64,000 nt of DNA from the NCBI GenBank assembly GCA_029688905.1, contig JARULB010000004.1:124001-188000 (forward strand), given 5' to 3'. Positions within the stretch are counted from its first letter, which is position 1. Each line of letters starts with the position of its first letter. This document shows, piece by piece, positions 28,278-40,850 of this stretch. The position numbers and the translations under genes were made by a program. The DNA comes from Balneolales bacterium ANBcel1 (lineage in GTDB: Bacteria > Bacteroidota > Rhodothermia > Balneolales > Natronogracilivirgulaceae). Below the pieces are notes generated by a model, which saw only the letters and a program-made list of their open reading frames with translations, did no database searches and was not told the origin of the DNA.

Positions 28278-28714
28278 GGCGCACCTCTCACGGCGTCAGG
28301 CCGCGTAATTAAAACATCACTATCCCCGGGTCAAATATACGAACAAGCCCGGCTTTTTATCATCATCCAAAATCACACATCTGTTCGTCCACCGACAAAC
28401 GCTGCAGAGCCGGCAATTGGTATCGGAAGATGTAATGTCTCAGAGAGATTCTTTCCGGAAGAAACAGGTTCGAACAGATCGGAAAACGTGAGTCTTCATT
28501 GTCTGCAACGGCCCCGTTTGCGGGAGGAACATCTTTGGAATAAAACCCGTATTTTAGGCTCCGAATTATGGGCACGACTGCACGACTGCACGACTGCACG
28601 ACTGCACGACTGCACGACTGCACGACTGCACGACTGCACGACTGCACGACTGCACGACTGCCGCCCTGATGCGTGAAGCAAACCGATCACCGTATATAAC
28701 GAACAGCAAGTTCC
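28278..28714. other. 437-bp divergent region between phosphopantetheinyl transferase and lysS genes
   Basis: Apart from the 88-bp octamer array at 28573-28660 there is a possible -10 element TATATA at 28693-28698, 16 bp before the lysS ATG, without a good -35. A minus-strand frame across part of the region is only the translated repeat (period of 8 residues) plus unrelated sequence. I see no RNA gene. Confidence 0.6.
28573..28660. repeat. Octanucleotide tandem repeat, 11 perfect copies of CACGACTG
   Basis: Eleven uninterrupted identical 8-bp units fill 88 bp, ending 54 bp before the lysS start codon. Such perfect arrays change length by slippage during replication. It is too short-period and spacer-free to be CRISPR. 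Its place in the divergent region between a phosphopantetheinyl transferase gene and lysS means copy number could alter promoter spacing or leader length. Confidence 0.97.
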
Positions 28715-30238
28715 ATGACCGAAGCCGAACTGAGCCTGACCGAGCAGGCGCGTTTCCGACGCGAAAAACTGGATGAAATCCGCAAACTGGGTTTCGACCC
28801 CTATCCGCATGATTTCACCACAAATTCCCATGCCGCCCAAATCCGGGAGAACCCCGGGCTGCTGGAAGGCGAGGAGGCCGAGCGAACCCGGGTTACCATC
28901 GCCGGGCGCGTAATGACCCGCCGCATCATGGGCAAGGCCGCTTTTTTCAATCTTCAGGATCAGTCCGGGACCATACAGGTTTATATCCGCCGGGATGATG
29001 TCGGCACCGATGTCTACAACACACTCTTCAAGAAACTCATCGACCTGGGTGACATTGTCGGGGTTTCCGGTTTTGTATTCAAAACACGCACCGGCGAAAT
29101 CACCGTACACGCCGAAACGTTTCAACTGTTGACCAAAACGCTTCGGCCGCTCCCCGTCGCAAAGGAGGTCGAAGACGATGAGGGCAACAAGGTCACCTAC
29201 GACGCCTTTTCCGACAAGGAGCACCGCTACCGGCAACGCTACCTGGACCTGATCGTCAACCCGGAAGTGCGGGAGGTTTTCGCCATGCGCACCCGCATGA
29301 TCCAGACCATGCGCGACTATATGAACGCCATGGGATATCTGGAAGTCGAGACCCCCATCCTCCAGCCGATCTACGGCGGCGCGGCCGCACGTCCCTTCGA
29401 AACGCACCACAACGCGCTGGACATGAAGCTCTACCTGCGCATCGCCAACGAACTCTACCTCAAGCGGCTGATCATCGGCGGGTACGACGGCGTATACGAG
29501 TTTGCCAAGGACTTCCGCAACGAAGGCATGAGCCGCTTTCACAACCCGGAGTTCACCCAGGTGGAGCTGTACGTCGCCTACAAGGACTACGAGTGGATGA
29601 TGGGCTTCGTGGAGAAAATGGTCGAGCACGTGGTCAAAACCCTGCACGGAACCACCAAAATTACTGTCGGTGATAACGAGATCGATTTCAAAACCCCCTG
29701 GCGCCGAATCCCTATGCTCGAAGCCATAGCCGAAGAGACCGGCAAGGACCTTTCCGGTATGGATGAGGATGAGATCCGAAAAACCGCCAGGGAACTGCGG
29801 GTTCCGGTGGATGAATCCATGGGCAAGGGCAAGCTGATCGACGAAATCTTCGGCGAAAAAGTGGAGCACAAACTGATCCAGCCTACCTTTATCACCGACT
29901 ATCCGATTGAAATGAGTCCGCTTGCCAAAAAACATCGCACCAAGGAGGGCCTGGTCGAGCGCTTCGAGCTGATGTGCAACGGCAAGGAGCTCTGCAATGC
30001 GTTCACCGAACTCAACGACCCGGTCGACCAACGCCAGCGGCTGGAAGAACAGGCAAAATTGCGCTCTGCCGGCGATGACGAGGCGATGGTCGTGGATGAG
30101 GACTTCCTCAAGGCCCTTGAATACGGCATGCCCCCGACCGCCGGACTCGGTATCGGCATCGACCGGCTTGCCATGATTCTGACCAACCAGGATTCCATCC
30201 GCGATGTGCTCTTTTTCCCCCATATGAGACCCGAATAA
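28715..30238 (+). CDS. lysS: Lysyl-tRNA synthetase, class II
   Basis: A 507-residue enzyme that charges tRNA-Lys. An N-terminal OB-fold anticodon-binding domain (about 55-160, '[27 protein letters not shown]') is followed by the class II catalytic core. Motif 1 is around '[14 protein letters not shown]'-like sequence, and the core includes '[24 protein letters not shown]' (motif 2) and '[20 protein letters not shown]' (motif 3). The C-terminus '[11 protein letters not shown]' is typical. It is complete with no unusual insertion. The upstream octamer array may affect its expression. An ABC-type permease gene follows after 76 bp. Confidence 0.96.
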
Positions 30239-39432: not shown

Positions 39433-40638
39433 ATGATTGACACCACACCCGCCATATCGCTGAGTCACTACGCAGAGCTCCTTCGCAAGGGCGGCGTTGT
39501 AGCATTTCCCACCGAAACCGTCTACGGCCTTGGAGCCGATGCCTGGAATGCCGACGCCATCGCCCGCATCTTTGCACTCAAGGGGCGCCCGCCGGACAAT
39601 CCCCTGATCGTACATGTCGGTTCGGTGGAAATGGCGGAAACCCTTGCGGCCGGGATTACCGAAGACGCCCGGCTGTTGATGGAGCACTTCTGGCCGGGTC
39701 CGCTGACTCTCATCTTCCCCAAGCGACCGGAGGTGCTGGATATTGTCACCGCCGGTATCGCGACGGTGGCAGTTCGTATGCCCGATCACCCCATCCCCTT
39801 GCGGCTCATTGGAGAATCTGGACCGCTCGCCGCGCCGAGTGCCAACACGTCGGGCCGTCCCAGTCCCACGAGGGCCGAGCATGTGCGCCACGATTTCGGA
39901 GACGAGGTGCCGGTTATCGAAGGCGGATCGTGCCAATACGGACTTGAATCGACCGTACTGGATCTTTCGCAGCATCCGTACACCGTTCTGCGACCGGGGC
40001 ATGTTACACAGTCAGACCTGGAGCGGGTGCTCAAACAGCCGGTCCGGATGGCGCAGCATCGGTCGGACGATGATACCGGTGTCGCCCCGCGCAGCCCCGG
40101 CATGAAATACACCCATTACGCGCCGGACGCCCGGGTACGCTGGATGACGCCTGACGAACTGGACGATCCCCCAACCGGCAAGAGCAAGACGCTCTATCTG
40201 CTTCACACATTGCGAGAGCACCAGGCCGTACCCACGCAGGACACGGATTCGGCATATGCCGGTGATTCAGGGGGGACTGGGGATTCTGGTGGATTGGAGG
40301 CTGATTCCAGGGACTCCGGCAGTACCGGCGATGCAAGAGTACCAGGTGGTTCCGGCTTTTCCGACGGCCCCGGTGTTTCCGACGATCCCGGCGATTCCGG
40401 CTTTTCCGACAGTACCGACGATCCCGGCGACTCCGGCGATGCAAAAAAACGGGCGAGGCAGCCGCTATCCGTTGTTCACTACCGGGAGGATTACATCGAA
40501 ATGGCGCGTGACCTGTACGACCGGTTCCGGATGGCCGACCTGAACGGCTATGAGGAGATCGCCATCGAACCGTTTCCCGCCTGGCACGAAATGACCGAGG
40601 CGCTGCTCAATCGCATTCGGAAAGCGATCGGCGATTAG
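39433..40638 (+). CDS. L-threonylcarbamoyladenylate synthase (Sua5 type) with low-complexity insert
   Basis: A 401-residue protein. Residues 1-210 are the YrdC/Sua5 catalytic domain ('GGVVAFPTETVYGLGADAWN', 'RPPDNPLIVHV', 'PSANTSGRPSPTRAEHV'), which makes threonylcarbamoyl-AMP for the t6A37 tRNA modification. The linker 'SPGMKYTHYAP' and the C-terminal Sua5 domain follow. Inside the Sua5 domain, residues about 275-337 are a Gly/Asp/Ser/Pro-rich repeat tract. Normal sequence then resumes at 'PLSVVHYREDYIEMARDLYDR'. Typical Sua5 proteins are about 60 residues shorter. The gene lies 16 bp after mfd. Confidence 0.9.
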   Translation: MIDTTPAISLSHYAELLRKGGVVAFPTETVYGLGADAWNADAIARIFALKGRPPDNPLIVHVGSVEMAETLAAGITEDARLLMEHFWPGPLTLIFPKRPEVLDIVTAGIATVAVRMPDHPIPLRLIGESGPLAAPSANTSGRPSPTRAEHVRHDFGDEVPVIEGGSCQYGLESTVLDLSQHPYTVLRPGHVTQSDLERVLKQPVRMAQHRSDDDTGVAPRSPGMKYTHYAPDARVRWMTPDELDDPPTGKSKTLYLLHTLREHQAVPTQDTDSAYAGDSGGTGDSGGLEADSRDSGSTGDARVPGGSGFSDGPGVSDDPGDSGFSDSTDDPGDSGDAKKRARQPLSVVHYREDYIEMARDLYDRFRMADLNGYEEIAIEPFPAWHEMTEALLNRIRKAIGD

Positions 40639-40850
40639 GATGAGGCATGGCACTACAGTGGATCCGGCGCATTGAGTAAGTGCACCTGGATTGTTCAGGA
40701 TCCCGGCGAGTTTTCTTCGGGCAACAATCCGGGAAGTGGAAGCCAAACAAAACAAAGCTGACAGGCCCTGTATAAAAATTGAGCGCCGTGTTCATGGCCC
40801 GGAAGAAGTCCGGAAGGAGTCCGGAAGGAGTCCGTTTGAAAGAAGTGCGG

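Follow-up and report, generated by a model that had tools for sequence, protein, structure and literature searches.

Repeat-driven variation in expression is known from surface genes, restriction systems and a few accessory regulators. Prokaryotic SSRs with long units (4–11 bp) have been surveyed by Mrazek and colleagues and are generally not suppressed (PMC4060949). In E. coli, the divergent clbR-clbB intergenic region carries an octanucleotide VNTR of 2–20 copies in the clbR 5′UTR; the transcription start site lies upstream of the array, which is thus part of the 5′UTR, and 20 versus 5 copies result in a two-fold change in expression (PMC7364221). In H. influenzae, a pyridoxine biosynthesis gene is preceded, at a distance of 12 bp, by an octanucleotide SSR (ATTATTTG, 1–6 copies), and hmw1A/hmw2A by heptamer SSRs (PMC2651432). 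TAACTGA heptamer repeats occur in Beggiatoaceae, Cyanobacteria and some Bacteroidetes, where they also precede ribosomal protein genes (PMC4679880). For octamer arrays at tRNA synthetase genes we found nothing relevant in the literature. Here, we describe such an array upstream of lysS in Balneolales bacterium ANBcel1 and consider it, with a probability of roughly 70%, a young octanucleotide microsatellite that grew by slippage in the non-coding lysS leader of this species only and whose copy number has either no effect or a small graded one.

The window analysed, a 64,000-nt stretch of the genome, contains the perfect array (GCACGACT)11.25 at 28572–28661 on the plus strand, detected both by tandem-repeat search (100% match, 0 indels, TRF score 180) and by our own scan. 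The 11 mismatch-free copies reported by the initial annotation correspond to CACGACTG ×11 at 28573–28660, to which one extra base is added on each side, and its distance to the lysS start is borne out at 54 bp from the last full unit (53–54 bp from the array end). In our scan this was the sole perfect tandem array of at least 2.75 copies in the window, and when 1.2 Mb of the genome was shuffled locally, not one array of at least 2.5 copies appeared; given that neither yields anything comparable, a chance origin is excluded. The array lies in a 437-bp divergent intergenic region between a 4′-phosphopantetheinyl transferase family gene (Pfam PF01648; 27645–28277, minus strand) and lysS (28715–30238, plus strand), which encodes a class II lysyl-tRNA synthetase of 507 aa (Pfam PF00152, E 1.6e-95) and is the only full-length lysS match in the genome. 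lysS is an essential gene. With its period of 8 the array is stop-free in all six frames, and it is outside the lysS frame, which has an in-frame TAA 15 bp before the lysS ATG. A weak promoter-like site of the divergent gene, identified by consensus match only, is located between that gene and the array (28334–28363, minus strand).

With head-to-tail perfect copies of a unit in the 4–11 bp range at a level far above chance, the lysS array looks like a kind known elsewhere, the slippage microsatellite, and falls among the long-unit SSRs surveyed by Mrazek and colleagues, a statistical class that implies no mechanism. The closest known system is the clbR VNTR, likewise a tandem array of an 8-bp unit in a divergent intergenic region; it is flanked by the promoter on one side and the start codon on the other, a position in the leader that for lysS is predicted. 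The two differ in that the copy number at clbR varies among isolates and its effect has been measured, whereas the lysS array is known from one genome's sequence; in addition, clbR is an accessory activator gene, and the units are unrelated. For the H. influenzae SSRs, too, variation among strains is documented, compared with one genome of the species here. The TAACTGA repeats resemble the lysS array in being arranged in tandem a short distance ahead of start codons, in some cases those of essential genes, but there one unit recurs at many loci per genome. In dispersed repeat families of this type (STRR) the unit is found at several loci, whereas the lysS unit forms an array at one locus only in the 3.32-Mb genome and the second array has another unit. 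A phase-variation locus would be expected to act on a dispensable target, usually a surface or restriction gene, and the target here is lysS. The initial annotation had called an array at this place unusual, and the octamer array before lysS is indeed real, but the description needs toning down given that octamers in the leaders of ordinary genes are documented and that the unit is found at 37 other places.

These 37 places, with at least 3 copies of the unit (3–19), were found among 85,000 genomes, in unrelated phyla and with unrelated flanks, and the flanking genes are diverse (dnaK, groEL, ruvB and others). Synthetase genes as a general neighbour of the unit were rejected, as only 1 of the 37 loci adjoins one (valS). 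A special status of the lysS octamer was likewise rejected on viral contigs, where the unit itself was found at 0 places, a reversed control at 4 and two other octamers at 1 and 0, the controls thus being equally or more frequent. Together, the unit survey and the viral-contig controls indicate that octamer arrays have formed many times and from many different units, as slippage predicts. A link to four-helix-bundle (S23/IVP) genes, suggested by Bacteroidales flanks, was rejected too, with 1 clear match in the 37 loci; no such link was found in the own genome by a search that had no positive control. A phylum-wide repeat family, GACTGCAN, had no match in 394 other genomes. Mixed octamer runs of GACTGCAN, GTCGTGCN and GCAGTCTT lie adjacent to each other in other bacteria, mostly Bacteroidales (loci L048, L061, L064, L065, L068, L069 and L074), as if one family had diversified within intergenic regions.

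An array of the lysS type is absent from 19 other genomes of the family, from 128 other species of the order and from 394 other genomes drawn from the phylum, and none of 13 family members has an octamer array in its lysS leader. At the same place, same-genus and same-family relatives have none against 11.25 copies here. The comparison of copy number across related genomes that the initial annotation had proposed gives 11 here versus 0 in every relative, which fits slippage. Perfect units combined with complete absence in relatives point to a recent expansion; as judged from the genomes compared, the lysS array is a microsatellite that is young and private and that probably arose by slippage. 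In one relative (G014), a 14-mer ×2.9 is found upstream of lysS (L015:2843-2883) and a 20-mer ×3.7 upstream of alaS (L226:147-220); lysS and alaS leaders acquire tandem repeats whose unit length differs between species.

Relatives share one conserved promoter type upstream of lysS (13/13) and alaS (9/9), with the consensus CTTTCCCG..ATTCC-TA.TTTT, or roughly CATCTTTCCCG..ATTCC-TA.TTTTA. A 44-nt promoter PWM was built from these 22 promoters and recovered the correct place in 22/22 leave-one-out tests. The consensus CTTTCCCG..ATTCC-TA.TTTT, shared by lysS and alaS upstream regions across the family (loci L010-L019 and L223-L231), is usable as a vegetative promoter consensus for the lineage. In ANBcel1, the best candidate for the lysS promoter by the PWM core is AACATCTTTGGAATAAAACCCG-TATTTTAG at 28528–28557 on the plus strand, with the predicted −7 box TATTTTAG at 28550–28557; it scores 13.8, approximately rank 30 for the PWM core on both strands of 2.05 Mb, where other high matches precede housekeeping genes, for example, rho-like and nusG-like genes by the listed protein starts. 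The core CATnTTT-N13-TATTTT, which was picked after both sites had been seen, has one occurrence in the window and another, at alaS, in 1.99 Mb of the rest, compared with 0.2 in shuffles. The promoter site of the relatives' lysS is degraded here and aligns with CTCCGAATTATGGG directly before the array, including the degenerate remnant GAATTATG (28563–28570, plus strand) that aligns with the relatives' lysS −7 box (TAATTTTA). In leave-one-out scoring the relatives' promoters reach 10–44, against values below zero for the closest windows that can be aligned here.

From the predicted promoter at 28528–28557 it is 15 nt to the array start, which under either promoter reading lies 9–22 nt past the first base of the −7 box. 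The initial annotation had placed the array at the promoter or leader, and by the promoter model built on relatives it falls within the predicted transcribed leader, most likely as the first ~90 nt of the mRNA. Slipped-strand mispairing would have expanded the octamer in this leader, with the array beginning at, or within ~10 bases of, the presumed transcription start and taking up ~90 of ~150 leader nt. Copy number would then change readily by whole units during replication; its most likely consequence is none, or a slight graded shift in where the transcript starts, in its stability or in its translation, as at clbR. Given that lysS is essential and that the array sits behind the promoter, this single essential gene is unlikely to be switched on and off by phase variation; it may respond in a graded way. 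Two observations count against a young, near-neutral microsatellite. One is that the strong lysS promoter of the relatives is degraded here, and lysS expression may therefore be changed in this genome. The other is a second array at alaS, a coincidence to which a process blind to gene function gives ~1–2%.

This second array, (AGGCTTAC)8.5 in the alaS sense (GCCTGTAA on the other strand), is located ~10 kb beyond the window end (G000:C4:197964-198031; L181:1465-1532) and is the only other octamer array of at least 2.5 copies in 2.05 Mb (62% of the genome). alaS was identified by PF01411 (E 5.8e-182) and is divergent from an M3 peptidase gene. Before it the relatives' promoter type is intact (score 16.8), and the first T of TATTTTTC (the −7 box) lies 9 nt ahead of the array start. 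At this place the relatives have AAGCTT, a conserved sequence at the transcription start that apparently seeded the unit AGGCTTAC. In the rest of the order no such array was found, so it is private too. The unit is unrelated to that at lysS; with only the period in common, the two arrays look more like products of one mutational process than like targets of one binding factor. The figure of ~1–2% is the probability that a second array falls immediately in front of a synthetase gene, or next to one, if 24 of 2,800 genes are taken to encode synthetases; its position could be chance.

A selected function would make more of the pair. Octamer arrays in the lysS and alaS leaders would then keep variants with slightly different charging capacity in the population, as growth or stress bet-hedging, so that in this lineage hypervariable arrays at the transcription start would be heritable, reversible dials of aminoacylation capacity. 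We regard this as unlikely, although two private arrays of unrelated units, each starting at a synthetase promoter in a divergent region, and no further octamer array in 2.05 Mb are in line with it, and in the relative G005 a third octamer array adjoins metG, but on the 3′ side. However, arrays are missing from ~10 other synthetase loci of the genome (some outside the 62%) and from 28 valS/ileS-type loci of relatives, the relatives' lysS and alaS leaders have no octamer arrays, no array is conserved, and a single one of the 37 places of the lysS unit in other bacteria has a synthetase gene as neighbour. The link was also noticed after the fact, and a tetramer array before a xylanase-like gene indicates that leaders in general gain arrays. 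If it were true, the lysS and alaS arrays would extend repeat-driven variation beyond surface genes to the dose of essential translation enzymes, which slippage would vary, and this would bear on growth heterogeneity and stress tolerance. If the arrays are neutral, they are a clear case of essential bacterial gene leaders freely tolerating expanding repeats.

Copy number could also act through translation of the leader. A possible upstream ORF of 33 codons runs through the array from an ATG at the predicted mRNA 5′ end (28568–28669, plus strand), and copy number modulo 3 would set where it ends and hence the lysS level. By the stops computed for 0–14 copies, the frame overlaps the lysS start at 10 or 13 copies, ending 62 nt inside, and stops 38–45 nt before it at 9, 11 or 12 copies. 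At the present 11 copies its TGA overlaps a second ATG at 28669 (TGATG, 28667–28671), whose ORF runs across the lysS start. The same behaviour is, however, expected of any stop-free period-8 array behind an ATG, the frame is not conserved and its translation is putative, which makes a frame-dependent control of lysS quite improbable.

In a draft genome of 23 contigs the assembly might have distorted the copy number, the true array being longer or shorter than 11 units, but this is very unlikely given that 90 bp is less than a common read length and that the flanking genes are intact and ordered as in relatives. The array could alternatively be a set of binding sites for a DNA- or RNA-binding regulator, for which the regular spacing near a promoter would be suitable and a precedent has been proposed for the TAACTGA heptamers (PMC4679880). 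This is a fainter prospect still, as the unit is arrayed at a single locus, the alaS unit is unrelated and relatives have no array. A lysine-sensing element, be it a classical leader attenuator or a T-box, which a site in a tRNA synthetase leader might suggest, can for practical purposes be dismissed, given that the lysS leader has no Rfam match, no terminator was found in it, its RNA fold is no better than shuffles (z 0.66) and the array peptide HDCTTARL is lysine-free in every plus-strand frame and hence provides no run of cognate codons. With no Rfam family, an ordinary fold and a unit that differs from that of the other octamer array in the genome, there is nothing to suggest a sequence-specific role, in line with a slippage-born microsatellite.

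Other tandem arrays were seen in this genome and in its relatives. The tetramer array (ATTG)7.25 (L189:7663-7691; G000:C1) lies 18 bp before a gene for a secreted GH10-type xylanase-like protein and is a more classical candidate for phase variation. The array in relative G005, (ATCAGCAG)4.75 (L118:4546-4583), overlaps the metG stop codon and is separated by 32 bp from the glycoside hydrolase gene that follows, and in relative G011 (GCTTTGGG)3.25 is found ahead of a galE-like gene. Within the window, a degenerate 9/27/45-bp repeat at 40350–40440 lies inside a Sua5/YciO-like frame as a Gly/Ser/Asp-rich insert with a length that is a multiple of 3, and the 11-mer CCGGAAGGAGT ×3.3 at 40799–40834 is located just 3′ of the following minus-strand gene.
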